Shown one piece after another: positions 1 through 18,900 of a stretch of DNA of 40,152 bases. The notes under the pieces are model-generated. The model saw only the letters and a program-made list of their open reading frames with translations, searched no databases and was not told where the DNA came from. Numbering within the stretch: position 1 is the first letter of the stretch; the number at the start of each line of letters is the position of its first letter. Source of the stretch: Verrucomicrobiaceae bacterium (GTDB lineage Bacteria > Verrucomicrobiota > Verrucomicrobiia > Verrucomicrobiales > V1-33); assembly GCA_027483175.1 (NCBI GenBank), contig JAIXVE010000124.1, positions 1-40,152 on the forward strand. Direction: 5' to 3'. A program made the position numbers and the translations under genes.

Positions 1-3000
1 GCGTTGAAGATTTCGCCGCTGCCGAGAGCGATGAATTCGCCGTCGGTGCTGACGCGGATGGGGGCGACGGTGCTGATGTCGCCGTGGTAGGGGGATTCGC
101 CGCCGCCGGTGATGGAGCCGGAGAGGCTGAGGTTGTCGAAGTGGAGATCGTTAGGAGAGGTGCCGTCGCGGAAGTGATACATGCGGCGGCGGACGGGGTC
201 CCATGCATTTTCTGCGCCGGTGTAGGTGAAGGAGGAAGGAGAAGAGACGGTGGCGCCGGAGGCTGAGAGGATGCGGACGGTGCCGTCTGCGGAGGCGAAG
301 AGGAATTCGCCGGCGGAGGCGAGGCCGCGGGGTGCCCATGTGAGGGAGGCGAAGGGGGCTTCGGCCGGGGAGGGCTGGGTGAAGTCGAGCTGGCGGATGG
401 AGCTGGAGCCGTAGGCGGTGAAGAGCCGGTGGGAGAGCGGGGAGTAGGCGGCGGTGTTAGGGGCTCCGTTGAGGGGGAGGGACGTGTTGTAGGCCTTGAG
501 GGAAGTGGACCAGCGGAAGACGGAGAGGTTGGCCTTGTTGAGGAGGAGGAGATCGCCGTTTTTGTCGGCGAAGGCGTCGTCGACGGAGAAGGCGAGACCG
601 TTAGGATTGATGGGCTGGTCGGGAAGCGGGGCGTTGAGGGAGGCGAGCGGGACGGATTGGATGGAGAGGCCGCGGGGGTTGGCTCCGTCGACGTGGAAGA
701 CGATGGCGTCGGAGCCGTGGACGGCGACGCGGGTGCCGTTGGCGGAGGAGAGCGTGAAGGAACCGGCTTCGGTGAGCGTGCTGGTGAGGGCGGAGAGACG
801 GTTGCCGCGGAGGACGATGGGGATGTCCGAGCCGCGGAAGGCCATATCTTTGAAGGCAGCGCCGAGGGATTTCAGGTAGATGAGACCGTCGGTCGAGTAT
901 ACGGCTCCGGAGTCGTCGGCGACGCGGCCGCCGCGTGGGAAGACGAAGGTGCGGCTGGCGTTGGGGTAGTCGCCGTGGTAGGGGCTGTTGATGCTGCGGA
1001 TGAGTTTGCCGTCCGGGCCGACGTCGAGGAACTGGATGTCGGCGGGGGAGACGTCGAGACTGCGGGAGAAGGCGCGGTTGAGGAACGGGTCGACGCTGAT
1101 GCCTGACGGGGAGTAGCCGGTGGAGAAGGAGGCGAGGACGGTGCCGGAGGATTTGTCGAGGGTGGAGTAGCCGCTGCCGAAGGTGACGAGGACATTGCCG
1201 ATGGCGAAGAGACCGGTGATGGGCGAGGGGCCGGTGAAGAAGATGGAGCGGTTAGAGCCGTCGAGATTCCAGCGGATGAGGTCACGGCTTTCAGCGGCGT
1301 AGATGCCGGAATCGTCGATCCAGAGGCTGGTGGCGGCGGCGGACATGGGGATGGGATCGAGCCATGCGCGGGTGGTGAGGTCGTAGCGTTCGAGGCGGTC
1401 GGGGCCGCTGAAGGCGAAGAGGTAGGTGGTGCCGAACTGGTGGGCGATGCCTGTGAATTCGCCGCCGAGTTTGAGGGTGGAGAAGGTGGTGACGGTGGAG
1501 GTGGAAGAGCCGGTGGCGTTGGTGGCGCGGACGCGGAGGGAGTAGGCGGTGCCTGAGGAGAGACCGTTGAGGACGAAGGTGCGGACATTGAAGCCGACAT
1601 TGCCTGCGGTGAGCCATGTGCCGGCTGGGACGGAGGAACGGTCGACGGAGAAGGAGTTTTCGTTGGTGGAGTTATCGGTCCATGTGAGACGGGCGGACGT
1701 GGTGGTGATTTCCGAGACAGTTAGGGCGGAGGGGGCGGAGGGGGCGGCGGCGGCGGTGAGCGTGCGGCCGGTGACCTGGGCGGAGAGGTCGGCGTCGAAG
1801 GTGCCATTGAAGGCCTGGACGCGGTAGAAGTATGAGGTGTTAGCTGAGAGATTGTTGTCGGTGTAGGAAGTGGCGTTGGGGGCGAGACTGATGGCGGTGG
1901 TGGCTCCGCCAGCGGAGAGCGAGCGGAGGACGCGGAAGCCGGTTTCGTTGGTGGCGTTATCGGACCATGAGAGGGTGATGCTGTTGTGGAAGATGCGGGT
2001 GACGGCGAGGTTGTAGGGTTCGCCGGCGGGTTCGTCCGGTGAGGAGAGCGTGCGGGTGGTGACGGCGGGGGAAGGGTCGGAGACGAGGGTGTCGTTGAGG
2101 GCGAGGACGCGGAATTCGTAGGTGGTGTTAGCGGTCAGACCGGTGATGGAGCCGGTGGTGGTGTTGGCGGCGGTGGTAGCGCCCGGGGACCATGGGGCAA
2201 GACCGGTGGCGGGGCGGAAGTCGATGCGGAAGCCGGTTTCGTTGTCGGAGAGGTCGGGCCATGTGAGGGAGACCGAGTCGACGGAGCGGTTGGAGACGGC
2301 GGGTGTGCCTGGGGCGAGCGGTTTGGTGGGGGAGGTGAAGACGGTGGTTAAGGAATCGTCGAGGAGAGAGATTCGTGGTGTGCCGTCGATGGAGGTGATG
2401 ACGGCGAGGCCTGATGGGGAATTGAAGATGCGGACGGGTGTGCCGGTGAACTGGCGGACGATGGGGCCGGTGGAGAAGTTGGCTCCGGTCCATGTCTGGA
2501 GCTGGGTGAGCCCGCTGATGAGGCGGATGGTGACGAGGGTGGTGGCGTCTTTCCAGACCCCGTCGGCGATGGTGTTAGGAAGTGTGGTGACGCGGTTGAG
2601 GTTGTCGGCATTGAAGACGACCCCGCTGCCGATGATGACGCGGTTGCCGTCGGGGCTGATGAGGATGGGGGCGTAGAAGCTGTAATCGCCGTGGTAGGGG
2701 GATTCGGTGGTGCCGGTGAGTTTGCCGTCGGCGGCGATGGATTCGTAGATGAGGTCGTTGGGGGAGATGCCGTCGCGGAAGTGGTAGAGGCGGCGGCGGA
2801 CGGGGTCCCAGCGTTTGTGGGCGCTGGTGTAGCTTCCGACGGTGTCATTTAGGACGGTGCCGGTGGCGGAGTGGATCATGATGCGGCCGCCGCGTTCGGT
2901 GAAGGTCATGTCGCCGGCGGTGGCGAGGCCAGAGGCTTCGGACGGGAGATTGACGAAGAGGGCTTCCTGAGGGGAAGGGGAGTTGAGGTCGAGCTTGCGC

Positions 3001-4163
3001 AGCTGGGAGGCGTTGCCCGAGTAGAGGGAGTAGACGGTGTGGTTAGGAGCGGAGTAGGAGACGACGGCGGGGGCACCGGGGAGGGAGAGAGTGGGGAGGT
3101 ATTTGCGTTCGGCGGGGGACCAGCGGAAGAGGGCCATCTGGGCCTTGCTGTAGAGGTGGATGATGCCGTTTTTGTCGATGAAGGCGTCGTCGGCGGTGAA
3201 GGGGAGCCCGTTGGGATCGATGGTCTCGCCTGGGTTAGGGGCGTTGAGCTGAGTGAGCGGGACGATCTGGACGGTGGGGGCACCGGTGGTGGGGCGGAAG
3301 AGGAAGGCGTCGGAGGAGGTGACGGTGAGTTCTGCGGCTCCGGAGGGGACGGTGATGCGGCCGGCTTCGGTGAGGGTGTTGCGGAAGGCGATGAGGTCTG
3401 TGCCGCGGAGGACGATGGGGACATCGCCGTTCCAGTCGACGTCGGTGATGGATCCGCCGAAGGAGCCTGCGAAGATTAGACTGTCGGCGGTGTAGACGGT
3501 GCCTGAGGAGTCGACGACTTTTCGTTCGTCGGGGAAGACGAAGGTTTGATCGGCGCTTGGGTAGTTGCCGTGGTAGGGGCTGCCGGCTGGGCCTGTGATG
3601 GCACCGGCGGCGGTGTAGCTGGCGGTGAAGATGTCTGAGGGGCTGATGCCAGAGGTGCGGCCGTAGAGGCGGTTGAGGCCTGGGGCGTGGGAGGCACCGT
3701 ACAAGGAGTTGGTCGGGCTTTCACTTGTGGTGATGACGGTGCCGGTGCCGCGGCTGATGGTGGTGATTCTGCCGCTGGAGCCGGAGGAGTGGACGGCGAT
3801 GAGGAGGGAGCCGTCGATGAAGAGGTGAGCGATGGCGGAGTTGGCGGAGCCGGAGGCGACTTCGCTGGCCCATGAGGTATTGTAGCGGTAGATGGAGGTG
3901 CCGTAGGCTACAACGTTGCCGAGGCCGTCACCGGTGAAAGCGGTCGCTCCGGAGCGAGGGAGGGTGATGGCGGTGAGCCATGTTCTGGTGGTGAGGTTGT
4001 AGCGCTGGATGGAGTTGCCGTAGAGGAAGCGGACCTCGTTGCCGACGCGCTGGGATTGGATCCATGGGGTCTGGGCTCCGGAGAGGGTGGGTATGAGGAG
4101 GAGAAGGAGGATGAGCCAGCGTCGGAGGAGGCTGAATGCGGATGGGTGGGCAGGTTGGCTCAT
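1..4163 (-). CDS. Giant secreted protein: two homologous ~550-aa halves separated by three FN3 domains (gene A; 3' end outside window)
   Basis: The frame is open from an ATG at 4163 to the left edge with no stop (1387 full codons), so the C-terminus is missing. Residues 1-30 form a signal peptide (LRRWLILLLLLIPTLSGA, then Q). Residues ~31-600 are a repetitive beta-rich half with short Trp/Tyr/Gly-Asp strands, probably propeller-like. Three fibronectin type III domains follow at ~610-705, 710-800 and 805-895, each with the SLTW/ARLTW, NETGF and YxFRV-type signatures. From ~900 the first half is repeated: DPVRRR(L/M)YHFRDG, SPYHGD, PNGL(P/A)F and DDAF(I/A)DKNG occur in both halves in the same order. 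Codons end almost always in C. The family is not named here; a secreted or surface adhesin-like role is only inference. The first ~75 codons have a close duplicate at 15478-15741. Confidence 0.85.
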   Translation of the reverse strand, partial: MSQPAHPSAFSLLRRWLILLLLLIPTLSGAQTPWIQSQRVGNEVRFLYGNSIQRYNLTTRTWLTAITLPRSGATAFTGDGLGNVVAYGTSIYRYNTSWASEVASGSANSAIAHLFIDGSLLIAVHSSGSSGRITTISRGTGTVITTSESPTNSLYGASHAPGLNRLYGRTSGISPSDIFTASYTAAGAITGPAGSPYHGNYPSADQTFVFPDERKVVDSSGTVYTADSLIFAGSFGGSITDVDWNGDVPIVLRGTDLIAFRNTLTEAGRITVPSGAAELTVTSSDAFLFRPTTGAPTVQIVPLTQLNAPNPGETIDPNGLPFTADDAFIDKNGIIHLYSKAQMALFRWSPAERKYLPTLSLPGAPAVVSYSAPNHTVYSLYSGNASQLRKLDLNSPSPQEALFVNLPSEASGLATAGDMTFTERGGRIMIHSATGTVLNDTVGSYTSAHKRWDPVRRRLYHFRDGISPNDLIYESIAADGKLTGTTESPYHGDYSFYAPILISPDGNRVIIGSGVVFNADNLNRVTTLPNTIADGVWKDATTLVTIRLISGLTQLQTWTGANFSTGPIVRQFTGTPVRIFNSPSGLAVITSIDGTPRISLLDDSLTTVFTSPTKPLAPGTPAVSNRSVDSVSLTWPDLSDNETGFRIDFRPATGLAPWSPGATTAANTTTGSITGLTANTTYEFRVLALNDTLVSDPSPAVTTRTLSSPDEPAGEPYNLAVTRIFHNSITLSWSDNATNETGFRVLRSLSAGGATTAISLAPNATSYTDNNLSANTSYFYRVQAFNGTFDADLSAQVTGRTLTAAAAPSAPSALTVSEITTTSARLTWTDNSTNENSFSVDRSSVPAGTWLTAGNVGFNVRTFVLNGLSSGTAYSLRVRATNATGSSTSTVTTFSTLKLGGEFTGIAHQFGTTYLFAFSGPDRLERYDLTTRAWLDPIPMSAAATSLWIDDSGIYAAESRDLIRWNLDGSNRSIFFTGPSPITGLFAIGNVLVTFGSGYSTLDKSSGTVLASFSTGYSPSGISVDPFLNRAFSRSLDVSPADIQFLDVGPDGKLIRSINSPYHGDYPNASRTFVFPRGGRVADDSGAVYSTDGLIYLKSLGAAFKDMAFRGSDIPIVLRGNRLSALTSTLTEAGSFTLSSANGTRVAVHGSDAIVFHVDGANPRGLSIQSVPLASLNAPLPDQPINPNGLAFSVDDAFADKNGDLLLLNKANLSVFRWSTSLKAYNTSLPLNGAPNTAAYSPLSHRLFTAYGSSSIRQLDFTQPSPAEAPFASLTWAPRGLASAGEFLFASADGTVRILSASGATVSSPSSFTYTGAENAWDPVRRRMYHFRDGTSPNDLHFDNLSLSGSITGGGESPYHGDISTVAPIRVSTDGEFIALGSGEIFN

Positions 4164-4207
4164 GAGATCAGGCGATTGAGCCGAGCCTCGCGCGGGGAGC
4201 GCTCGCT

Positions 4208-4219
4208 ACAATCGCGAAG
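4208..4219. repeat. 12-bp sequence shared by the leaders of gene A and fragment B
   Basis: ACAATCGCGAAG lies 45 bp upstream of the gene A start and recurs exactly at 15805-15816, 64 bp upstream of the start of the truncated copy. Its core TCGCGA is palindromic. It could be a conserved operator or simply a remnant of the duplicated leader; the sequence alone does not separate these. Confidence 0.4.
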
Positions 4220-4347
4220 GCTAGTCGATTGACGGGGCGGCGACGGCTGGGCGCAGGGGTGCGGCCGGCGGCGTGGGCCGGTGAGTCGCAGGGTCTGCGG
4301 AGGCAGCGATCAGGAGACGGCGAGTGGTCGGTGGTGCAGGGGAGGCA

Positions 4348-4506
4348 GTCGCTGGAGTTGTAGAGCGAGGCGTTGGCGGGGAGACCGGCGACTTGGATTT
4401 CGAAGCGGCCGGTGTGGGGTGGGCCGACGTTGCGGATGGTGACGCGTTGTTCCCGGAGACCGGTCTGGCGGTTGAGGATTTGGGGGCCTGAGTGGTGACG
4501 GAGGCA
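4348..4506 (-). pseudogene. Orphan C-terminal-type domain fragment, remnant of a secreted protein
   Basis: Read on the minus strand from 4500, an ATG-less frame encodes a domain beginning SGPQILNRQTGLREQRVTI and continuing through VAGLPANASLYNSSD near 4348. I recognise the NxQTGLxEQxVT ... GLPA ... YN pattern from the C-terminal region of large secreted verrucomicrobial proteins; this is recalled, not searched. A TGA at 4507-4509 closes the frame upstream and no start is available, so it is a remnant rather than a gene. Downstream of ~4348 the open frame continues to about 4174 without recognisable content. It lies directly downstream of the RHS gene in the same orientation, and its composition is native-like (the line at 4261 has 31 G against 15 C). 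The rest of 4164-4347 shows nothing else I can name. Confidence 0.5.
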
Positions 4507-4525
4507 TCATGGCCGCGACCGACTC

Positions 4526-4566
4526 AATCATATCGGCCATAGGTTTCCACTATGGCCGACATGATT
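4526..4566 (-). terminator. Long stem-loop 19 bp after the RHS stop codon
   Basis: Two 17-nt arms (AATCATATCGGCCATAG at 4526-4542 and its near-complement at 4550-4566) pair at 16 of 17 positions around a 7-nt loop. On the minus strand the hairpin starts shortly after the RHS stop (TAG at 4585-4587). There is no following T-tract, so intrinsic termination is uncertain; it could act as an mRNA 3'-end stabiliser or be a boundary scar of the island. Confidence 0.5.
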
Positions 4567-4584
4567 CGGGGCGTGGCCTCGAAA

Positions 4585-7500
4585 CTACTTGGCAACGCTC
4601 AGCCGCAGGAACTTCCTTGAGGGCAAAGCAACTGCGGATGTTTCGGAAACGGAAACCGAGCCGTCAGGTTCTTCGCTTACGGCAAATCCCGGAGCGGCGA
4701 TCCATGGTCCATTGCCCGTTTTTGTTGCAACGTTGGTCCACGGGAAGCCAAACAAACGGACAGCCGATTCGACTCGCAGTGTCAAATCGACGGCACTGAC
4801 GTTGCGCCTGAAGGTGAACGCCACCCGGTTGCCTGAAAGTGATGCTTTGGGAAGCGAAGCAATGGAGCCGCTATTTGGCGATGAATTCAGCGCGTACTCC
4901 ATCAGGTTTGTGATGCCGTCATTGTCAGGATCGGCAATCGGGCCACTGACTGAATCCAACTGAACATCTGACTCAGTAAACTGCTGCCGTCTCCAGATCT
5001 CATATGGAGTCATCGGCAGCACGATCAGACGGAAGACGGCGACACCGCCCCAGAGATTGTCATTGCTCTTTGCTTTGACCTGGAAGGTATGCGTTCCCGG
5101 GGTCACGTTATTCCAAGTGGCTGAGGCGGACGTGGTGTTGATGGTATCAGCTGGAGCAGCATCAAGGGCGTAGCTGTATCCGGCGATGCCGCTGTCACTT
5201 TCAGGAGCCCCCCAGGTGAATCTGTGATTCAGATTGTAGGTCGCCACGCCATCTGTGGCACGGTCGCTATCCAGCGCCTTAGGCGCTCCGGGTGCGACGG
5301 TGGATGTTTCAGCAGTGCCAACGGCGCGACCGATCGAATCATAATTGAACGTAATCGGGGCTGCTCCAGGTGGAGTCAGGCTTGCGAGTTGACCGAAACG
5401 GGTGCGAGTCATGGACGTGACCCGATCTGCAGCGCCGGGCACCTTCTCGATGACTTTCAGGATGTCGCCGGTCGCGGGGTCCCGCTCGTAGCTGGTCACG
5501 CGGCCCAGAATGTCCGTGGTGCTGTTCAGCCACCCTTTCGCTGGATCGTAGCCATAGAAAATCGAGCCTGAGGGTGTCTTGACTTCGATGACGCGGTCAA
5601 AGTCATCGAAAATATACTCGATTTCGCTGCTCAGTCGTGGGTCCGTTATCTTCCAGAGCCTTCCAAGCGAATCATACTTATAACCGATCATCACACCGGT
5701 GGCATCGGTCACGCTCGTCACGCGGTCCAGGGCGTCCCTGCCAAAGGTCGAGACAGTCTTGCCGAGCGGATTTGTGATGGTCCGCAAGGCTCCCGAAGCT
5801 GCGTAGCCGTAAACCGTGTCGACGTTGACACCGTTGAGTTTCGAACGAGCCCGCTGGACGCGCTTGTTTGCGTCGTAGATCACCTCGGAGACGGCACCGG
5901 AAGGATCAGTCAAGGTGCGAAGTTGTTTCGTCGCAGGGTCGTAGGTGGCGGTCACGTCCTGGGCTCCAACATTGCCGGGATCGACAATCCTGGTGGGTTG
6001 ACCCAGTTCGTTGCGTTCGATCTTGATCGTTGGCCTGCCTGCGATGGGCAGATTGATCGCATTGGGTGCCAACGAATCGGCGTCGTAGCCGAAAGATGTC
6101 GTGGCTCCAGTGGCGTCCTTGGCCATCAAGACACGGCCCGCACGGTCCATCTGTTTGGTAGTTGGCTGGAAGGCAGGATCGGCGATCAAAGGATCGCTTG
6201 TCGTCGTGGTCCGGACCGTTCCGGTGGCGTCCTGAGTGAATCTGCTGTTTGCTGTATTCCCACGAGCGTCCATGGCGACCCCCTGACGGCCCTTCAGATC
6301 GGGCTGCGTCTGGAAAGCGTCCAGCCCGTTGAAGCGAGTCTTCCGGTTGAGCTGGCAGTTGGCGTTGTAAGAATATTGGACATAAGCACCGCTGCGCACA
6401 TGGGTGGCGCGGTAGAGGCAGCCGTCAGGCGTGTAGGTGTAGTTGACCTGCTCTGACGCAGGTCCTACCACGCTCACCAACTTGGCGTTGGCATCATAGT
6501 TGAGCGTGAGCACCTGTGAGGCGGAATCGGTGATCGTCTTCAGCGCTCCTGTAGTGTCGTAGGCATAAGTTTGAGTCTTGGCATTCTTGTCCTTGGTGGT
6601 CAGGAGACGGCCTTGAAAATCAAAGGTCATTTCCGCCCCATCAGCGGTCGTCAGCTTGTAGTCACGCGTCGTGTCAGTCAACTGCGTGAGGGTGGCTCCG
6701 CTCTGCCGTTGCCCAGAAGTGAAGGTGGGAACTCCGTTGGAATCCAGACCTGAGAGACTGATCACGGTGTTGCCAATGTTGTCCACTCCATAGCTCAGTT
6801 GCAGGGACGAGTTGAAATCCAAGGCACCGCCGCTGCGGAGGTCCACCACCCGCACGCCACCGCTGCGGAGGCGGGTGTCCCTGTTGAGATCCCTATACAC
6901 AGGCTGCCCAGCATGGATCATGAAGCCATTATCGTCATACCAGGATGGACGTTGGAATTCGAGGACAAACGGCGTCACGCGCCAGCCTGGGCCGAGGTTG
7001 GATTTACCCAGCCATGAGCTTTGGTAGAAACGCACGAACTGCAGAGGCAGCGCACCTGGGCTGGCAAAGCTCAGGTCCACTTCGGCGAGGTCCATGGCAC
7101 CGTCCTGCGGTTCGGCGTTGACGCTGGTGGCCACCGCTTTCAGATTTCCCTCGACGGTGTTCGCGGTAAAGACCTGTTCTTTGAGGTCGCCGCCAGCATT
7201 GCCGGCCATATCCGGGCGGCTGCTTTGCACTACGTCGGCCACACTTTTCGCGCTGGCCGAGGGCACATAGGCATTGGGTTTGTTCACCTGCACGCCACCG
7301 TAGATGACCAGTCCCGCTTGGGTGTTGTAGGCAGTCGGGGTGCTCTTGGGCGAGTAGGCATACGGGGGCTGCCAGGAATTGAGCCACCACATGTCCACGG
7401 GCACATTGTTGTCGCGGAAGAAACGGGCCAGTGATACAGCCCGCATCACATCGCGCAGCTGGTCGAAGATCTTGACGTTGATGATGGCCGTGCCGGTCGG

Positions 7501-10500
7501 GTCGTTGTAGTCCACGCACGGGAAGGTCAGGTTCGCGAAAGCGTCGTAGTTTGCCGTCAGATGATCGGCAAAGGCCTTGGCCTCCGGTGGCTGGGGAAGG
7601 CCGACGAGGAAGGACTCCGTGTTGCAGGCCACGCTGGCGGAATCGAAGACGATGCTCGCCCGGGCAGTTACAGGATCGACGTGACGTTTCAAGGTCATTT
7701 CCTTAGGGGTAAACCACAGGCGGATGTTGCCGCCTGTGCCACCACTTGCGTTCTGGCGCTCGATCATGTTTTGGTAGCCTGCAATGGGCACCGTCCCGCT
7801 GTTGTAGCTGGCACCTGTAAGGTTGTCTTTGCCCACGCTCAGGCACTTCATCACCCTATCCGCTTCGAGCATAACCCAACCAACACTTGTACCTTCAATG
7901 CGTCCGCCAAACTTACGGTGTTGCTTGGCGGGATACACCTGCACCCTATTAACGATGTAGTTTCTGGAGGATGCGTTATTCATGGTGAACTGGGTGAACG
8001 AGTCGAGTCCATAGTCGGTCCAGCGGCGCGAACCTCCGCGTGTGAGAACGCCTCGTTGCCAAGGTGCTGTATCGAGCGTTACTCCGGTGGGCGGTGGGTT
8101 TACCCACGAGTTAAACACCATCCACATGCCAGTTAAGTGATCGAATCTAGGGCCCGGCTCACAATTGAATCGGGCTGTCCAAGTGAAATCCGTGCCGTTC
8201 CAGGTGGCATCTACGGTAACATCTACTGTTGTGTCTTCATTGGGCCAAATGGGATTGTAGCGTATGAAAAAACCACCCTTTTCTCCGATCTCGAACACAC
8301 CGTTGCCGTTGCCGAAGTCGGTCCACTGGGTGTAGGCGGAAGCGGGTGGGTCGAGTGTGACGAAGGGCGGAACGGCGGAGCCATAGACGGCCTGAAGCGC
8401 GGTGTACAGGTAGTCGAGATTGATGTCCTTCACCGCCGCCGAGCCTTCGGTGCCGAGAAAGACGAATTGGCCGGTGACGGGGTCATAGACGGCTCCGCGG
8501 AGGTCGCTGAGGTTTGATCCGACTAGGGTGGCGGCTTTGTCGAGGAGGACGCCACCGACAGGCGCTGAAGCGAGCATCGAGCCAGTGCTGAACAATGGAT
8601 TTCCGAAGTCGCTAATCATGCTGCCTGTCTTTTTCGGAGAAAAATAACTGGCTGTATTTAATGTTGCATCGATAAGCTTGTTTAAGTCAATTGATGCGTT
8701 TATCTCCCAGCTTGAGATCGGTGAAAAAGGCCGGGCATATTTGAGCTCAAGTTTCCCTTGAGCTTTATCGGATGAAAACATATTGCCTCCACTTGAAGAA
8801 AGAACTTTGCTGTCACCAATAGAAAATTCGGGCCCTAGTGTTGTTTTGCCAGATGCATATGTTAACGCCCCCGATGCTTTGCCGGTCCCTGCTACAGCGT
8901 AATCGCCGCCCCAATTTAGCTTGAATTCCGCGCCCCCTTCTGCGGAAAACTTTGCGGCTGCCTTCGATATACCGGTTTCCAACTCGATCTTCGGGCCGAA
9001 ACGACCCGCTACACCATTTGCGCCGATTGATATGTCCGCGATGCTCGCCTCAATCCCAACCCCAACCGAGCCTTTTGTTCCATACTGTTCCGCAACCTTG
9101 AGCCCCAGTATCAATTTTGCATTGAAGTCCCCAACATCTAGCCATTGATCTATTAGGGATGGTGAAGTGCCGTTGGGGTCGATTTTCGAAAGGGGGTTAG
9201 AATCCGCATATTGATATTGATTGAATGCGCCAACAACTCCAAGAGGATCTTTCGAGATAAATGATCCAGTTTCAGGGTCGTAGAATCTAGCGCGCATGAA
9301 ATAGAGATCGGTGCCATGTTGTATATTAACGGTAGCAAACTGGGCTCCGGCTTTAGCGGAAGCCTCTTGTCCGAATGAATCGAATCGGAAGGAGCTTCTT
9401 GAATCTCCATGAGAATTTGTTATAAACGGAGCGCTGCCAAGTCGATCCTCTAAAGGAATTCTGATTTCAGAATCCCTGCTGACGAGTTTGGAGCCGCCGA
9501 AAGTTGAAGTTGCAACAATGGCCCCGCTTTTGTCTCGTTCTTCTACAGCATCATAGAAGGCAAGTGAGGGGTTGTTGATAAAAGTGGTTTTTGTGCCATT
9601 CACGTCGCTTGATATGCGCTGATTGGAGCCGTCATACTCAAGTGTAACGGAGTTGATGCCATCATTGTAGCTCACCATCAAATTCCGCTCATCATAAGAG
9701 TAGTTGGTTGTCTTTTCAGGTGTGATCTTCTGGATGCGATTGCCGGCACTGTCATATCGGAATTCTGCGATCGTTGCCCCCGTTTGGTCGGTGACTTTCA
9801 GCAGGCGGTTTTCATTCCCGTAAGCGTAGCTCCGAACTTCCGTGACAACGTTATTGACCTTGGTGGTTTGCGTCAGGCGGTTGCCGTTCGGATCATAAGA
9901 GTAGATGACGGTCTTATCGTTGGCATCGATCACTCCGTCGTCGGCATAAATGACCTGGTTCAGCCGGTCGAACCGATCATACCCAAATCCTTCACGACGA
10001 ATGACGTTCCCTGGGAGTGTCGTGCGAAGTTCCGTGGCCTTGCCCGCGGCATCGAGGGTGTAGAAGAATTCCGCCATGAGCGCGGATCCCGTTGTTCTCT
10101 GATGGCGAATGGTCGTGAGCTGTCCCGCGCCATTGTAAAAATACACGGTCTCGATGCCATTCGGGCGGGTCAGCTTCGTGAGCTGGCCTGTTGCTGGATT
10201 GTAGGTGTAGGTAAATAGGAGACTGTGGGTGACGTTGTTGACCGTCTTCATGCGTCCGGCATCGTCATACGAGTACTCCACCCGCTCGCCACCGGGATAG
10301 ACTACTGCGGTGCGAAGCCCGGCAATATTGAATTCATAGGACAGCTTGAGGTCGTCGCCATCGCCCTTGGTCGCGTTCTTCGATTTGATGACGGCGGTGA
10401 GGCGGCTGAGTTCGTCCCACTCATAGAAAGTGGAGCCAGTGTAATCCGTCATGCTGGTGTTGCGCCCGAGTACATCATACGAAAAGTCGACCACCGCGCC

Positions 10501-13500
10501 ATTGCTGGAACTGCGGCGGGAGACAAGCCCCATCTGATTGTAAGTGATGGTGGTGACGATGCCGTTGCCATTCTTCGTGGTCTCCACGCGGTTCAACTGG
10601 TCATGCGTCTGTGTCTCCACATGGGTGAGGCTGGGCACGAGATTGACCGTAAACTGGTTGGTGGCCGTACCACCGCCTTGGAGGGGCGTGGTGACGGTTA
10701 CGAGATTGGATCCTGCTGTGAGTGTCCGCACCCCGGTGTAAACCTGCCCGTTATACTCGTATTCGAAGGCGTAGTCGGCGCTGGTCACCTCCTGGCTGGA
10801 ACGGAGTTTGAAAGCGCCGGTGGCATCAATCGTGACCCGGCCTGAGGTGTAGGATGAGCCCGCCACTGAGCCATCCGTGATGGTGGCATAAAGGTAGTAG
10901 CTGCCTCCGATGAGGGCGGCGTCTGGTCGCCAGGCGAAGAAGTTGGCCCCGCCGGAACTCAATCCGGTCGTGATGGGGATGAGTCCCGTGGCAGGATTTT
11001 GATCGGCGTCCAGATAGAGTGCAATGGTGGCCTCTCCGGCGGGATAGCTGTCCTGCCACGTGATGTTAAAGACGGATCCCGCGGAGAGATTGAGATCGCT
11101 GGCAGGCTGGAGAAGCGTGATGGTCGGCAGGGAACCCTGTCCAGTGAGGCTGATGCGGGCGATTGGCGTCACGGGATCGTTCGAGGCGATGTCGAGTGTG
11201 CCCGTGAGGGAAGCACTGGTGGTCGGGTCGAATGATAGGGACACGGTCCATGTTTCGGCCTGGGCGGGGGCCAAGGTACGAGCGGAAGCCGACGAAGCGC
11301 CGACATTGATCGTTCCTGCGGTGGAGGAGACGATGCTTGCGATTTGGAATGAGGCACTTCCGGTGAGGCTGATGCCATTTTGCGAGACGACCAATGGCTG
11401 CGTGCCCATGTTCCTGATAGTCACCGTCTGCTGCGCGCTGCGGTTGCCCGCGCCGTCATTCAGCGCGGCTCCAAAGGCGACCGCTAGGTCCCCGGATGGC
11501 GCAACCGAATCCGAGATGGAAAGGGCGGGCTGGGTCAATCCCGTGCCCGTGAGACTGACGGTCGTGGTGGGAGCCGAAGGGTCATTGCTGGCGATGCGGA
11601 GAGTGTCGGTCAGCGCTCCGCCTGTAGAGGGATCGAAGAGCAAGGTGACGGTCCAGCTTTCTGCGCTGCCACCGGTGATGGTCTTGGCGGCAGCGCTGAG
11701 ATCAATGGTTCCAGCGGTGCTGCTGGTGATGGTGCCGAGCTTGAAATGGGTGCCGATGACGAAAGTGAGGCCGTTTTGGGGAATGGACAGAGCGGCTTCA
11801 CCGGTGTTTGTGAGCGTCACGGTGGCGGAATTCGACTCCTTTCCGGTTCCGTCCGCGTGAACGTTTGAGAAAGCAATCGCACGATCGGTCGGCGACCCAT
11901 TGGAATCCGATACGGCGAGGCGCATGGGCTGCACACCCGTCCCAGTGAGTGATGCGGTGAAGGATGCTTCATCGGGATCGTTGGAGAGCACCTTCAAGCC
12001 ATCTTTCAGCAAGCCAGTAGTTGTGGGGTCGAACTTAACGACGACATCCCATGTTTCCGCTCCGCTTGCTGCCATGTTGCGTGTGCCGGAGGCGAGATTG
12101 ACGGCCCCCTGCGTAGAACTGGTGATGGAGACAATGCTGTAGTGGGTCCCCGTGAGCAAGGAAACGCCGTTCTGGTTCACCGTGAGCGGTCCGGTGCCAA
12201 CGTTTTTCAGGGTGATCGTGCGGTTCGCCGTAAATCCACCCGCACCATCCTGAACGATGCTGCCGAAATCGGTTTCCACCGCTTCGGCGGTGGCCAGAGC
12301 AACATCCGGCACCGGCGAGCCGGTTCCCGTGAGGGCGACGGCAAGCGCAGGGGTAGTCGGGTCGTTGCTGGTGATGGTCAGCGTGCCCGCGTGTGCGCCC
12401 GTGGCGGCTGGATCGTATTGGAGCGTGATGACCCAGCTTTCGGTGCCATTGGGCGCGATTACCCGCGGGAGGGAACTCACATCGATGAAGTTCTGCGTGC
12501 TGCTGGCGATTTCCACGAGGCTGAAGTGGGGACTGCCGGTGAGCGCCAAGTTGCTCGTGTTGAGGCTGGCTTTGCCTTTGTTGACGATGGTGACTTTTTG
12601 CACGCCGCGTGCATTTCCTGCGCCGTCATTCGCGACAGAATCGAACGCTACCGCATTGTCGTTATTCGGCGATGCCGAGTCCGTGACGTGCATAGAGGGC
12701 GTCGGAGGGGTTATCGAGATGGTCGTTGCATTCCGATCAAGGTTGGAACCCAAGTTTTTGTTGTTGGATTCATTGCTCTCTGCCACTTCATTGTCAGCGT
12801 CCACGACCATGCCAACGTAGAAAATCGTTCCCGTTCCAAAGGGGTTTACTGATGGGAGTACAACGGACTGGGTTGGAGTGGCGCTGTAGGTCTGGCCGGG
12901 TATCCCCGAGATAGTGCGTGTGAACACAACGTAGTCTCCGGAATCGCCAATTGTCAAATCCGGAGAAAGATAGAACTTCACATTGAATGGTCCGGAATTT
13001 CCGCCAGTGTTATTCACAACTGCATGAGAGACACGGATGATATCCCCCCAATTGGCACTGGACTCTAGCACGCGAAAATAGACGCTGCCGCCAAAGACTC
13101 GCGAATCAGCACCCGCGAGGTCGGGTGGTGGAATGGTCACCGTGAGAGATGCCAGATCCCTTCCTAATCCTTGATTTCTATTGTCTCCTTCATTGGTTTC
13201 ATTCACCTGGTTGGCGCTATCAACTACCATTCCGATGTGGAAAGCTCCAGGTCCGCCGAGACTGGCGATTACGTTTTGGGGAGGGAGACTTACGGGAATG
13301 GTGTAAGAAGGTTGTGCAATCGGACCCAATGCTGGAATGCCGCTCAGATTTCCGGTGAGTGCAAAGTCTGTCGCAGGATCAATGCTTGCGTCCTTAGACA
13401 AATAGAACCTGACGCTTGATGCTCCGGCCGGGGTGTTTGATGCGTTGAGAATCCCAAAGGTCACCGTCACCTGAGTGCCCGCGGCGACCGATGCGGAACT

Positions 13501-13605
13501 CAATGAGAATCCACCGTTGAGTCCAGTGAGGTTCTGAGCGCAACCTCGGGATGCAGACCACATGGAGATTGCAATGCACAACAGAATGATAGGATTGATG
13601 TGCAT
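4585..13605 (-). CDS. 3006-aa secreted CARDB / choice-of-anchor-D / RHS-repeat protein with internal RHS core
   Basis: Residues 1-24 are a signal peptide. Two CARDB-like domains (~25-300) with FYLS and GMVVD strands follow, then four choice-of-anchor-D repeats (~305-825; SxDP/SNDP and LTGTG motifs), a beta-sandwich (~830-920) and a first block of RHS/YD repeats (~1000-1370). The RHS-associated core is unusually central (~1375-1478), with LEDRLGSAPFITN, YFMRARFYDPETGSF and DPLG. After it comes an AT-rich Gly/Ala/Ser-rich module (~1479-1690), an unrecognised block (~1690-2170), a segment resembling the domain that opens RHS proteins (~2170-2210), and a second YD-repeat wall (~2330-2740) without its own core. 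The end has an FN3-like domain (~2766-2862) and a DxDNDGxxNLxEY segment. RHS cores normally close a shell and are followed only by a variable tip, so this order is odd. Codon use is unlike its neighbours. The start is 4 nt after the upstream stop, implying co-translation. Confidence 0.9.
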   Translation of the reverse strand: MHINPIILLCIAISMWSASRGCAQNLTGLNGGFSLSSASVAAGTQVTVTFGILNASNTPAGASSVRFYLSKDASIDPATDFALTGNLSGIPALGPIAQPSYTIPVSLPPQNVIASLGGPGAFHIGMVVDSANQVNETNEGDNRNQGLGRDLASLTVTIPPPDLAGADSRVFGGSVYFRVLESSANWGDIIRVSHAVVNNTGGNSGPFNVKFYLSPDLTIGDSGDYVVFTRTISGIPGQTYSATPTQSVVLPSVNPFGTGTIFYVGMVVDADNEVAESNESNNKNLGSNLDRNATTISITPPTPSMHVTDSASPNNDNAVAFDSVANDGAGNARGVQKVTIVNKGKASLNTSNLALTGSPHFSLVEIASSTQNFIDVSSLPRVIAPNGTESWVITLQYDPAATGAHAGTLTITSNDPTTPALAVALTGTGSPVPDVALATAEAVETDFGSIVQDGAGGFTANRTITLKNVGTGPLTVNQNGVSLLTGTHYSIVSITSSTQGAVNLASGTRNMAASGAETWDVVVKFDPTTTGLLKDGLKVLSNDPDEASFTASLTGTGVQPMRLAVSDSNGSPTDRAIAFSNVHADGTGKESNSATVTLTNTGEAALSIPQNGLTFVIGTHFKLGTITSSTAGTIDLSAAAKTITGGSAESWTVTLLFDPSTGGALTDTLRIASNDPSAPTTTVSLTGTGLTQPALSISDSVAPSGDLAVAFGAALNDGAGNRSAQQTVTIRNMGTQPLVVSQNGISLTGSASFQIASIVSSTAGTINVGASSASARTLAPAQAETWTVSLSFDPTTSASLTGTLDIASNDPVTPIARISLTGQGSLPTITLLQPASDLNLSAGSVFNITWQDSYPAGEATIALYLDADQNPATGLIPITTGLSSGGANFFAWRPDAALIGGSYYLYATITDGSVAGSSYTSGRVTIDATGAFKLRSSQEVTSADYAFEYEYNGQVYTGVRTLTAGSNLVTVTTPLQGGGTATNQFTVNLVPSLTHVETQTHDQLNRVETTKNGNGIVTTITYNQMGLVSRRSSSNGAVVDFSYDVLGRNTSMTDYTGSTFYEWDELSRLTAVIKSKNATKGDGDDLKLSYEFNIAGLRTAVVYPGGERVEYSYDDAGRMKTVNNVTHSLLFTYTYNPATGQLTKLTRPNGIETVYFYNGAGQLTTIRHQRTTGSALMAEFFYTLDAAGKATELRTTLPGNVIRREGFGYDRFDRLNQVIYADDGVIDANDKTVIYSYDPNGNRLTQTTKVNNVVTEVRSYAYGNENRLLKVTDQTGATIAEFRYDSAGNRIQKITPEKTTNYSYDERNLMVSYNDGINSVTLEYDGSNQRISSDVNGTKTTFINNPSLAFYDAVEERDKSGAIVATSTFGGSKLVSRDSEIRIPLEDRLGSAPFITNSHGDSRSSFRFDSFGQEASAKAGAQFATVNIQHGTDLYFMRARFYDPETGSFISKDPLGVVGAFNQYQYADSNPLSKIDPNGTSPSLIDQWLDVGDFNAKLILGLKVAEQYGTKGSVGVGIEASIADISIGANGVAGRFGPKIELETGISKAAAKFSAEGGAEFKLNWGGDYAVAGTGKASGALTYASGKTTLGPEFSIGDSKVLSSSGGNMFSSDKAQGKLELKYARPFSPISSWEINASIDLNKLIDATLNTASYFSPKKTGSMISDFGNPLFSTGSMLASAPVGGVLLDKAATLVGSNLSDLRGAVYDPVTGQFVFLGTEGSAAVKDINLDYLYTALQAVYGSAVPPFVTLDPPASAYTQWTDFGNGNGVFEIGEKGGFFIRYNPIWPNEDTTVDVTVDATWNGTDFTWTARFNCEPGPRFDHLTGMWMVFNSWVNPPPTGVTLDTAPWQRGVLTRGGSRRWTDYGLDSFTQFTMNNASSRNYIVNRVQVYPAKQHRKFGGRIEGTSVGWVMLEADRVMKCLSVGKDNLTGASYNSGTVPIAGYQNMIERQNASGGTGGNIRLWFTPKEMTLKRHVDPVTARASIVFDSASVACNTESFLVGLPQPPEAKAFADHLTANYDAFANLTFPCVDYNDPTGTAIINVKIFDQLRDVMRAVSLARFFRDNNVPVDMWWLNSWQPPYAYSPKSTPTAYNTQAGLVIYGGVQVNKPNAYVPSASAKSVADVVQSSRPDMAGNAGGDLKEQVFTANTVEGNLKAVATSVNAEPQDGAMDLAEVDLSFASPGALPLQFVRFYQSSWLGKSNLGPGWRVTPFVLEFQRPSWYDDNGFMIHAGQPVYRDLNRDTRLRSGGVRVVDLRSGGALDFNSSLQLSYGVDNIGNTVISLSGLDSNGVPTFTSGQRQSGATLTQLTDTTRDYKLTTADGAEMTFDFQGRLLTTKDKNAKTQTYAYDTTGALKTITDSASQVLTLNYDANAKLVSVVGPASEQVNYTYTPDGCLYRATHVRSGAYVQYSYNANCQLNRKTRFNGLDAFQTQPDLKGRQGVAMDARGNTANSRFTQDATGTVRTTTTSDPLIADPAFQPTTKQMDRAGRVLMAKDATGATTSFGYDADSLAPNAINLPIAGRPTIKIERNELGQPTRIVDPGNVGAQDVTATYDPATKQLRTLTDPSGAVSEVIYDANKRVQRARSKLNGVNVDTVYGYAASGALRTITNPLGKTVSTFGRDALDRVTSVTDATGVMIGYKYDSLGRLWKITDPRLSSEIEYIFDDFDRVIEVKTPSGSIFYGYDPAKGWLNSTTDILGRVTSYERDPATGDILKVIEKVPGAADRVTSMTRTRFGQLASLTPPGAAPITFNYDSIGRAVGTAETSTVAPGAPKALDSDRATDGVATYNLNHRFTWGAPESDSGIAGYSYALDAAPADTINTTSASATWNNVTPGTHTFQVKAKSNDNLWGGVAVFRLIVLPMTPYEIWRRQQFTESDVQLDSVSGPIADPDNDGITNLMEYALNSSPNSGSIASLPKASLSGNRVAFTFRRNVSAVDLTLRVESAVRLFGFPWTNVATKTGNGPWIAAPGFAVSEEPDGSVSVSETSAVALPSRKFLRLSVAK

Positions 13606-13609
13606 GGCG

Positions 13610-14221
13610 TTATGGTTGCGGTTTGGCGGAATTGTTGCCTTCGCGAATGGTCAGCTTCGACGCCGGGGGTGGAATGGCGCGGATTTGTTGCGGAGCCTGC
13701 GGGGGATCGAAACGCAGGGTTTGGGAGTGCCTGGTGCCATGCGAGGAAGTGTTTTTCCCGGTGGAGTTATCTGCTTCCACCCATGAGAACTCGCGCGCCT
13801 GCACCCAGTCCTCTCTAACGATAATCGTTGCAACCCCAGTCTTTCCGCCGCAGGAGCAGTTGATGAGCAGCTTGATTTCACCGGCAAAGGCAATGGCCTC
13901 GAAGTTATTCTCCTGAGGTGTTACTGAAAGGTCTGCCCATGCCGTTTTCGGGATGCTGATTTGTTTGCCACCAATACTGAGCTCAAGCCCGAGAGGCTTG
14001 GATGGTGTTTTCTCAATTGCGGTAAAGAGAGCGGTGACCTGATATGGACGATTATCAGGCAGCTTGCCGGACTTATTGATCTTGGCCTTCGCATCTGAAA
14101 CGGAATGCAAGGCGGCTTCTTTTTTTCCGCTTTTATCCAAGGGAGCTCCCCCTTCATCTCCAGACGCCATCAGGATTAAGGCCATGTAGGCGAAGAGACC
14201 ATGAGCGAGAGGCGGGTTCAC
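13610..14221 (-). CDS. 203-aa putative exported protein, co-operonic with the RHS gene
   Basis: I do not recognise this protein. The frame begins with GTG at 14221; an internal ATG 12 codons later gives a shorter start, and neither has a clear Shine-Dalgarno sequence. The first ~20 residues contain a short hydrophobic stretch (GLFAYMALILMA) that could be a weak signal or anchor. The middle (~45-140) alternates strands and includes NCSCGG, a possible disulfide or metal site. The tail is Pro/Ser/Asn rich. The stop lies 4 nt before the RHS ATG, so the two are almost certainly co-transcribed and the RHS start may rely on translational coupling. It shares the balanced G/C composition of the RHS gene. 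A role in export, folding or immunity for the RHS protein is possible by position only. Confidence 0.65.
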   Translation of the reverse strand: MNPPLAHGLFAYMALILMASGDEGGAPLDKSGKKEAALHSVSDAKAKINKSGKLPDNRPYQVTALFTAIEKTPSKPLGLELSIGGKQISIPKTAWADLSVTPQENNFEAIAFAGEIKLLINCSCGGKTGVATIIVREDWVQAREFSWVEADNSTGKNTSSHGTRHSQTLRFDPPQAPQQIRAIPPPASKLTIREGNNSAKPQP

Positions 14222-15477
14222 ATGGCCATGATGTTCGGATTAGGCCTAGCGTCAATCGAATTCGCCCGGCGATTTGAGGGGTATTTGTGGGGGGTGGCTG
14301 TGGGGGGTGTTGGTTTGACAACGAGATTGCCAATTGGTATGGCATTCTTTGCTGAATCTACGGTATTGTTGCTGCCTCTGGAGTAAGCTCCCGGGTAATG
14401 GGCTCTGGGCGGCATGAATCGCGGTTCAGACAAAGTGGCGGGTTGTGCGATGGATCATTCGCTTTGCGGTTGGGGCGGATTGTGGTGTTTCGGAACCAAA
14501 TCAGGGAACTGCGGGGATGTCGCGCTCAGCATGATGGTTTTCCTCATGAGTGGTACCGTGCGTTAGGAAATGGGCCGTATTGCGGGGTCGCTCGGGCCGG
14601 CATCTGGGCGGAGGGAATGGTTTCGGAGCAGGCAACCTAGCACTGAAATGGGTTATCCGGTGGTGGAAGCTGTAAAAATTGTGATCATCATAATCGAGGG
14701 AGGTTCCTAGGCTTCCTGGTGGGAAGGTGGCGCTTTCGTCGCTCTCTTCCGTGCCTGAGGCAACATGTGGCGATGGGACCTCAAACCTGACGGCTGTATC
14801 ATGGGCGGAGTGTGGTCTGGGCCACGGTCAGCGACTGCCGCAGGCTGCGGCATGCCGCTCGGAGAATGGATGTGGCGCGATCAAAAGCGTCGCGGCACGC
14901 CCGGACGCCTCGGTGGATGGCAGTGAGTTGTGCCTACTGGCCAGTGATTGCGGGAGGCGTTGCCTCGGGGATGGTGCGGTACTGCGAGGCGAAGCGGGCG
15001 GGAGTGATCGACGAGACGTCGGAAGTGCTGACGTGTGACTCCAAGAACTTTTGGAGGTGCAGGTGGCGCTGCGGGAGGGCTTCCGCTGGTACTGACCGGG
15101 GGTGAGGGGGCGGCGACAGGACGGGGCTGGAAGGCTCCGGCCAACCGAACAACAAGGGAGGCGCTGCTGGCAGATTGCCCGGGGTTTTTTGATGCAAGGG
15201 TCGTCGGCAGACGCCGGATCGCTGAGGCTGAACTGGAGGTTGTGGAAAGACCGGGGCACTATTTCTGTGGGTTCCTCTCCGGGATGGATGAAGCGGGATA
15301 TGGTGCCGAGGGAGGTGGGATCGGCGGTGACTTGATTAAGGCTGGCCGCAAAAGGATGATCGGGAAGTGGTCTAGAGGGCGAGGGAAGCGATGGGGAATT
15401 GTTGACGACGCTTCATCGGATGTGTCTGCGGTTTCCGGTCGGCAGGGCCGGAGATCCCGGGAAATTCCGAAGGATCG
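14222..15477. other. Gene-poor 1.25-kb region
   Basis: Several open frames of 60-180 codons exist on both strands, for example 14398-14640, 14727-15038 and 15035-15580 on the plus strand, but none gives a sequence I recognise and they overlap one another. Composition is intermediate between the skewed backbone and the balanced RHS unit (the line at 15241 has 22 G and 11 C). The part next to 14221 must hold the promoter of the two-gene RHS unit, but I see no convincing -35/-10 pair. No tRNA, integrase or transposase remnant was found. It may be decayed DNA between fragment B and the island. Confidence 0.5.
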
Positions 15478-15741
15478 TCATTCCGAGATTATTGGCCGGG
15501 TGAACGCGAAGCAGAAGGCGGTGGCTCCGGTGCGTGGGAGGGTGATGGCGGTGAGCCATGATCTGGTGGCGAGGTTGTAGCGCTGGATGGAGTTGGCGTA
15601 GAGGAAGCGGACCTCGTTGCCGACGCGCTGGGATTGGATCCATGGCGTCTGGGCTCCGGAGAGGGTGGGTAGGAGGAGGAGAAGGAGGAGGAGCCAGCGG
15701 CGGAGGAAGCTGGGTGTGAGCAGGTGGGCAGTTGGGCGCAT
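15478..15741 (-). pseudogene. Truncated duplicate of the gene A N-terminus (fragment B)
   Basis: An 87-codon frame starts at ATG 15741 and matches the start of gene A. From LRRW to GATAF I count 58 identical residues of 64, including the signal peptide and the strictly shared TPWIQSQRVGNEVRFLY. Identity stops abruptly after the Phe codon at 15514-15516; the last 11 residues are unrelated and end at a TGA. A product of this size would be a signal peptide plus a stub, so it is best read as a broken paralogue. The line at 15601 is nearly identical to the matching DNA of gene A near 4020-4080, so the duplication or a conversion event is fairly recent. Upstream lie a heptanucleotide repeat and the shared 12-mer. 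Confidence 0.8.
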
Positions 15742-15744
15742 GAC

Positions 15745-15804: not shown

Positions 15805-15816
15805 ACAATCGCGAAG
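15805..15816. repeat. Second copy of the 12-bp leader sequence
   Basis: This is an exact copy of ACAATCGCGAAG at 4208-4219, in the same orientation relative to the downstream homologous coding start. Confidence 0.4.
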
Positions 15817-15958
15817 ACTGGGGGTGCGGGTGGGGGGTGATGCGCTTAGGGGGGCGAGGTGCGGCGTTTGCAGGTTTGGGGCGGGTGAGCCTCGGGCTTG
15901 ACAAGGAGGGGGTGGTGGGGGCCAGTAGGGTCGATTTTCCGGAACCTTGATTTTGATT

Positions 15959-18900
15959 ATGACCTCACGAATTGTCGCTTCTCTGCTGGCTGGAACGGTG
16001 CTGACGGCTGGTGCTGTCGAGCCGCTGAAGGTGCTGTATATTACCGGGGGGTGCTGTCATGATTATCCGGCGCAGGCGGATCTGATTCCGGCGGGGGTGG
16101 AGGAGCGGGCGAATGTGAAGTTCACGGTGTTTCTGGATCCGAATGTGTCGACGGCGTCGAAGATGAAGGTGTATGAGGATGCGAACTGGGCGGCGGCGTA
16201 CGATGTGATTGTGCACAACGAGTGTTATGCGGATGTGAAGGATCCGGAGTGGACGCAGCGGATTCTGAAGCCGCACAAGGAAGGGAAGCCCGGTGTGGTG
16301 ATTCACTGTGCGATGCATTGCTACCGGGACGGGACGGAGGAATGGTTCAAGTTCTGCGGGGTGACGTCGCATCGGCACGGGGCGCATTATCCGCATGAGG
16401 TGCGGAATGTGAACGCGGGGCATCCGGTGATGCAGGGATGGGGGCCGGCGTGGGCGAATCCGGCGGGGGAGCTTTACTGGATTGAGAAAGTGTGGCCGGA
16501 CACGACGGTGCTAGGGGAGTCGAAGAATCAGGAGAACGGGAAGGCGGAGCCGTGTGTGTGGACGAGCAATTACATGGGGAAGGCGCGGGTGTTCGGGACG
16601 ACGCTGGGGCACCATAACGAGACGGTGAGTGACGGGAAGTTTCTGGATCTGCTGGCGCGCGGGATTGTGTGGTCGGCGGGGAAGCGTCCGGAGGATTATG
16701 TGAAGCGTGCGGAGCCGAAGCGGGTGCCGGTGAATGTGGCGTTAGGGAAGAAGGCGAAGGCGTCGTCGGAGGAGGGCGGGAAGAACAATGTGGCGGGGAA
16801 TGCGGTGGATGGGAAGGCGGCGACGCGGTGGTGTGCGAACGGGGCGCAGGCTGGGGAGTGGGTGGAGGTTGATCTGGGTAAGGCGCAGACGGTGACGGGG
16901 GCGAGGATTGCGTGGGAGGGATCGCACGCGATTTACCGGTACAAGGTGGAGGGGTCGGCGGACGGGAAGGCGTGGGAGATGCTGTATGACGGGTCGAAGA
17001 ATGTTTTGAAGGGGACGAGCGAGGTGGCGTTCAAGCGGGACGGTGTCAGACATGTGAGGGTGACGTTTCTGGGGACTGATGCGGGCGGCTGGGGGAGCAT
17101 CTGGGAGCTGGTGGTGCACGGGACGGAGACGGAGGTGGTGAGTGCGGCGGCGGCGGCTGGAGCGGATGACGGGAAAGTGCTGTCGGATGTGAAGGTGCCA
17201 GCGGAGTTTGATGTGAGTGTGTTTGCGACGCCTCCGGCGGCGAATTATCCGGTGTATGTGGCGGCGGCTCCGGACGGGACGTTGTTTGTGTCGTGCGACA
17301 AGAACGGGTCGCTGGATCGGAAGCCGCTGCGGGGATCGATCATCCGGTTGAAGGATCTGGATGGGGACGGGCGTGCGGATCAGTCGAATCTGTATGTGTC
17401 GGATGTGGACAGCCCGCGGGGAGCGGTGTGGGATCACGACCGGTTGTATCTGGTGCATCCGCCGCATCTGAGTGCGTTCATTGACCACAACGGGGACGGT
17501 GTCAGTGACGAGCAGAAGATTCTGGTGAAGAACATTGCGTTCGGATTTGCGGACCGGCCGGCGGACCACACGACGAATGGGTTGACGCTAGGGATTGATG
17601 GCTGGCTGTATGTGGCGACGGGGGACTTCGGGTTTGTGGAGGCTGAGGGGACGGACGGGAAGAAGCTGCAGTTCCGTTATGGCGGGGTGGTGCGGGTGCG
17701 GCCTGACGGGACGGATCTGCAGGTGTACACGACGGGGACGCGGAACATTCTGGATGTGGCGATGAGTCCGCTGCTGGACGGGTTCTGCCGGGACAACACG
17801 AATGACGGTGGTGGCTGGGACATGCGGTTTCACCATTTCACGGGCATGGAGGACCATGGGTATCCAAGGCTGTATATGAATTTCGGGGATGAGCACATCA
17901 AGCCGCTGGCGGAGTATGGTGGTGGGTCGGGGTGCGGCGGGGCGTGGTTGAATGAGCCTGGTTATCCGGAGCGTTATGCGAATGTGCCGCTGACGTGCGA
18001 CTGGGGCCGGAGTTTCACGTACAGCCATCATGTGACGCCTAACGGGGCGACGTTCAAGGATGATGTGAGGGAATTCATCGGGATGACGCGGGTGACGGAT
18101 GTGGATCCTGACGCGATGAGCCGGTTGTATGCGGCGAGCTGGCGGGGGGCTTCGTTCAATTACGGAGGGGAAGACGTGGGGTACATTGTGGGTGTGAAGC
18201 CGAAGGGTTACACGCCGGAAGCGCTGCCGGACTTTGAGAAGGCGAGTGCCGGGGAGTTGGTGAAGCTGCTGGAGAGTCCGAGTGCGCGGCGGCGGTTGGA
18301 GGCGGTGCGGGCGCTGGGGCGTCGGGGGGTTCCGTCGGAGGCGACGGTGAAGTCGCTAGTGGGGCTGGCCGGGAATGGGGCGTCGCCTTTGGCTTCGCGG
18401 GTGGCGGCGGTGTTTGCGCTGAATGAATCGATGGCTGGGAAGAGCACGGAGGCGATTGCGGGGCTGGCGAAGATCGGGGACATTCAGGCCTGGGTGATCC
18501 GGGCGCTGGCGGACCGGCCGGTTTCTGCGGCGAGTGCGCCGCTGGCGGTTTTGAAGGCGGGTTGCGAGTCGGAGAATGTGAGGGTGCGGCTGGAGTCTGC
18601 GGTGGCGCTGGCGCGGACTGGGAAGGTGGAGGGAGCGGTGGCGATTCTGCCGTTGCTAGGGGATGCGGATCCGGTGATTGCGCACACGGCGTTCCGGGCG
18701 CTGGTGGAATTGAAGGCGGCGGATGCGTGTTTTTCCGTCGTGGATCGTGCGGACGCGAGTTATGAGCAGAGGAAGGGAGCGTTGTATGCGCTGATGAGGA
18801 TGCACGAGCCGGCGGTGGTGGACGGGTTGATTGCGCGGGTGGCGAAGGAAGGGGATTCGGCGCGGTTGCGGGGATTGCTGGCGGCGTTGTGCCGGCTGCA

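Follow-up and report, generated by a model that had tools for sequence, protein, structure and literature searches.

A stretch of DNA from a Verrucomicrobiaceae bacterium, 40,152 nucleotides long (the window), raises the question of what became of a giant gene whose two ends seem to lie on either side of an RHS gene. An earlier note, made from the letters of the sequence, had proposed that an RHS island replaced the middle of a second copy of the neighboring gene A and that the two copies had been tandem paralogues. We followed this proposal through the window, the other contigs of the same draft genome (G000) and related genomes, including that of a sister species (G003).

Gene A belongs to a family of giant tandem genes

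The 5' part of gene A occupies positions 1 to 4163 of the minus strand and encodes a giant Fn3/Ig/cadherin-like protein. The gene continues on contig C1, which shares an exact 119-bp overlap with the left end of the window, lengthens gene A by 3149 bp, and encodes cadherin-like repeats; its last codons lie on a contig that the assembly lacks. At least three further copies of the giant Fn3/Ig gene are present in the genome besides gene A, and their products are probably secreted. Two of them lie head to tail on contig C179, the first being complete (3104 amino acids from its ATG, with Fn3 and Ig domains). A search of GTDB contigs with the gene A N-terminus returned no relative.

The C179 pair demonstrates the tandem arrangement directly, and exact 119-bp overlaps at contig ends suggest the order of the remaining copies. 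By such overlaps C26 joins C1 and C179 joins C169, while C1 and C237 share their terminal 119-bp word and C237 and C179 their initial one. The simplest path suggested by these overlaps is A - X - C237 - X - C179-1 - C179-2 - C169, where X would be a repeated contig missing from the assembly that holds the C-terminus of gene A. Because X is missing, this C-terminus is not directly readable; repeat-collapsed arrays are of the kind that draft assemblies miss. We also observed that two family members, C237 (168-7832) and C418 of G003 (3-8066), are without the N-terminal propeller-like segment and keep the signal-peptide-like start; internal deletions are therefore seen in the family.

A truncated gene start lies beside the ThuA gene

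The earlier note had read fragment B as a duplicate of the gene A N-terminus, cut at about 15513, and the alignments bear this out. Fragment B (15514 to 15741, minus strand) represents codons 1 to 76 of another gene of the gene A type and has a signal-peptide-like start. At the DNA level, positions 15514-15743 are 90% identical over 230 nt to positions 3936-4165, the 5' end of gene A from its ATG, and the homology breaks off at 15513/15514. At the protein level, the N-terminal segment belongs to the gene-A family with 82% identity to gene A over 74 amino acids (E value, 1.8e-36). The alignment score of 346 compares with a maximum of 35 in 300 shuffles. Since the C179 copies are only 79 to 82% identical to B in DNA, B is closest to gene A. 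As a gene, B is dead.

An exact upstream word, CTTCGCGATTGT, precedes fragment B at 15805-15816 (minus strand) and gene A at 4208-4219 (minus strand, inside the spacer), some 45 to 64 bp before the respective ATG. The same word also precedes other copies of the family, its carriers being gene A, both C179 copies, C237, and C256, C273, and C418 of G003. When larger loci were compared, the exact word occurred only upstream of family copies. CTTCGCGATTGT is likely a promoter or regulatory element, possibly one shared across the family. With an upstream region of its own that carries CTTCGCGATTGT, fragment B has the look of a genuine gene start.

The 3' end of a family gene leads into gene A

On the other side of the island, the earlier note had placed a C-terminal-type fragment at 4348-4506. 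The fragment is real, and those coordinates were right to within a few bases: positions 4342 to 4504 (minus strand) correspond to part of the gene-A-family C-terminal domain. Read from 4504 to 4342, the segment is 87 to 88% identical in DNA to family C-terminal coding regions of G003 (87.8% to C273:203-366 and 87.2% to C418), compared with 73% (C179) and 72% (C169) for copies in its own genome. Chance similarity was rejected by shuffling, the alignment score being 225 against a shuffled maximum of 38. In the G003 copies the matching segment sits about 135 codons before the stop.

The remnant extends beyond the fragment first noticed. A long-gap alignment to C418 and C273 of G003 reveals an internal deletion of about 0.37 kb, after which the last codons, the native TGA stop, and the family intergenic spacer follow at 4164 to 4325 (minus strand). 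The spacer runs from this TGA up to the ATG of gene A at 4163 and resembles the spacer between tandem copies in G003; gene A thus lies directly downstream, as had been proposed. The C-terminal domain, native stop, and spacer all assign the 3' remnant to the gene-A family. Its frame is disrupted by small indels, and it is therefore the end of a pseudogene. The two remnants also share one orientation and stand in 5' to 3' order on the minus strand, in agreement with the earlier reading.

Whether the C-terminus of gene A itself contains a domain homologous to the 3' remnant was a check that the earlier note had proposed, and it could be made in the sister species, the C-terminus in this genome being missing from the assembly. 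In G003, contig C325 carries the gene A orthologue (95% identity across 3130 bp), and its last 119 bp recur exactly as the first 119 bp of C273. A family C-terminus is encoded in the opening 774 bp of C273, and within it lies the counterpart of the 4504-4342 segment, with 88% identity in DNA. Given this match, the absence of similarity that would speak against a common origin was not what we found.

A decayed insertion sequence ends at the break in B

A decayed insertion sequence of the ISKra4 type adjoins the break in B; its C-terminal part and right end occupy 15044 to 15513 (plus strand). The remnant matches a transposase on contig C105 (tblastn E value, 1.2e-8; 34% identity over 119 amino acids), scoring 38.9 bits where shuffled sequences reached at most 21.9. 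The C105 copy in turn matches the NCBIfam model transpos_ISKra4 (NF033572), below its full-length cut-off, and it is through this copy that the remnant is assigned to the ISKra4 family. Searches of the frames of the decayed stretch against Pfam and NCBIfam gave nothing significant, the broken frames yielding no direct NCBIfam match. The rest of the decayed stretch (14222 to 15043, plus strand) contains a second transposase segment at about 14830-14910 (tblastn, 27 amino acids, 44%).

A copy of the insertion sequence in another genome, G004, shows the element to be 1508 bp long and its inverted repeats to begin GGGTGCGACCGCC. As in other ISKra4-family elements, the remnant has a transposase C-terminal segment and a colinear right end, which aligns near-gaplessly with the C105 copy up to the junction. 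The right end projected from this gapless alignment lies at about 15529, within the first 16 bp of the B-like sequence; the break in B is therefore at the end of the insertion sequence, to within about 16 bp. Unlike intact members of the family, the element is broken by frameshifts, no left end or left inverted repeat was found between 13.5 and 15.3 kb, and no target-site duplication was seen.

These features bear on the possibility that B was never a full gene, being instead a short duplication or gene conversion of the 5' end of gene A, with the 3' fragment as the end of another lost gene. Such an origin would fit the shortness of the match between B and A, 90% identity over just 228 bp. We nevertheless consider it very improbable, since B has its own upstream region with CTTCGCGATTGT at a different distance, its homology stops at the remnant of a transposon, which is what a broken gene would show, and the 3' end of a family gene stands on the other side.

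The island carries an intact RHS gene of lower GC content

Between the two remnants, the island spans 4505-15513, or 11,009 bp, which contains an intact RHS open reading frame (ORF) and the broken transposase; the earlier estimate of about 11 kb of foreign and decayed DNA was thus accurate. The GC content is 56% in the RHS ORF, 54% in an ORF of 203 amino acids, and 59% in the decayed stretch, compared with 65% in gene A (54 to 59% for the island versus 63 to 66% in its neighbors). GC at third codon positions is 0.65 in the RHS ORF versus 0.86 in gene A.

The RHS ORF (4585 to 13605, minus strand) encodes 3006 amino acids and is open throughout, with no internal stop. It comprises CARDB, choice-of-anchor D, an RHS core, a middle domain, and a second RHS block. 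Its membership in the Rhs/YD-repeat proteins follows from TIGR01643 and TIGR03696 matches above cut-off, and like other variable accessory genes of this kind it has RHS repeats, Rhs_assc_core and DUF6531 matches, a lower GC content, and a distribution limited to this genome among those searched. It differs from them in carrying a second RHS block after the first core within one ORF of 3006 amino acids and in its CARDB and choice-of-anchor D front; no toxin tip was found among Pfam or NCBIfam domains, and no immunity gene was identified. We also observed that, of the two RHS blocks in the one frame, the first has a core domain ending near residue 1479, followed by a middle domain of about 690 amino acids; the second block, of DUF6531 type, starts at about residue 2169.

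With a 767-amino-acid part as query, eight relatives, G003 among them, yielded no close homologue of the RHS protein; this part gave only partial matches, of 27 to 33% in those relatives and of 25 to 33% when the rest of this genome is counted in. The one relative of the middle domain that turned up is in a Verrucomicrobia MAG (51%). The 203-amino-acid ORF (13610 to 14221, minus strand) lies four bases upstream of the RHS ORF, not downstream, and is probably its operon partner. It belongs to no known family, has no Pfam or NCBIfam match, and was absent from the 12 genus and family relatives searched. Just after the RHS stop, a strong hairpin at 4527 to 4568 (minus strand; positions 4500-4590 fold at -46.2 kcal/mol, z = -6.35) is a probable terminator. 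The RHS gene is likely the functional occupant of the locus today.

Joining of unrelated contigs by assembly error could in principle produce such junctions in a draft of 365 contigs in which the repeats of the gene-A family are collapsed. Contigs here end at exact 119-bp repeats, however, and no such repeat marks either junction of the island; moreover, G003 has both the right flank, with ThuA, and the gene A side. We therefore rejected misassembly as the main explanation and regard it as extremely improbable.

The sister genome and the history of the locus

The island is flanked, beyond B, by a divergent gene encoding ThuA, F5/8C, DUF7133, and cytochrome c (PVC-type heme protein) domains (15947 to 20191, plus strand), which is 99% identical in G003. 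A search of relatives for an intact tandem pair, also proposed in the earlier note, was answered in part. This genome itself has the C179 pair, and G003 has the same set of family genes without a close RHS homologue, but no intact orthologue of B was seen there. Instead, a family member that we call gene0 (C443, 6700-9539) adjoins ThuA in G003 and is divergent from it. Gene0 is without the N-terminal segment and without CTTCGCGATTGT, and no counterpart of it was found in G000. A close A/B-type N-terminus was sought in G003, with only 78 to 80% DNA matches; the start of its gene A is therefore missing from the assembly. The ancestor may have had both gene0 and B, or the two may be alternatives.

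That A and B were tandem paralogues is thus supported by the family and order of the fragments and by the existence of tandem copies; both fragments may come from one gene or, several similar copies being present, from two neighboring ones. A larger deletion could have taken the end of one array copy, any copies between (perhaps gene0), and the start of another, with the island in the scar. The array does have several other copies, similar enough that the ends could stem from two of them, and in G003 the gene next to ThuA is gene0, not a recognizable B. We judge this history unlikely, because the simplest reading needs one gene and because the N-terminus most resembles A, and the C-terminus most resembles the type found after A in G003. 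It would alter the history and not the nature of the scar.

Since contig overlaps suggest that the other copies form one array with gene A, B was most likely the copy upstream of it, and we consider it probable that a copy B directly upstream of gene A was reduced to its two ends, its middle being replaced by the IS/RHS island. In the ancestral locus, giant Fn3/Ig/cadherin-like genes would then have stood in tandem, pointing away from the ThuA gene. An ISKra4-type element may first have inserted near codon 77; IS-adjacent deletion, illegitimate recombination, or both could next have eliminated the body of the gene and introduced the RHS unit. B would thereby have lost nearly all its body from about codon 77, keeping its 5' end with the upstream element and its 3' end with stop and spacer, and the 3' remnant would have decayed further by its internal deletion. 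This order of events is suggested by the degree of decay, the insertion sequence being old and broken and the RHS gene intact.

DISCUSSION

One or more gene-A-family copies upstream of gene A have lost all but two ends. Both ends come from the same family, in the right order and orientation, and the spacer to gene A is the normal intergenic spacer of the family. The DNA that replaced the rest is lower in GC, was not found in the relatives searched, and contains a broken insertion sequence at the break in B and an intact RHS ORF.

Giant genes have reportedly been found in PVC bacteria, and our literature search found no directly relevant paper. The locus resembles tandem arrays of giant Fn3/Ig/cadherin-like genes in its head-to-tail genes for proteins of about 2.6 to 3.1 thousand residues, and differs in that one copy has been cut to its ends by an island. 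More broadly, the array might be a site of recurrent exchange, at which copies are swapped for very large surface or RHS genes via insertion sequences and homology between copies, with gene0 (G003) and the RHS gene (G000) as alternative occupants of the first position next to ThuA; we regard this as distinctly unlikely. The process is a well-known one, ordinary genome decay and gene replacement, with unusually clear remains. Because both ends were kept, the locus documents the loss of one of the tandem giant genes of surface type, whose place was taken by an RHS gene.
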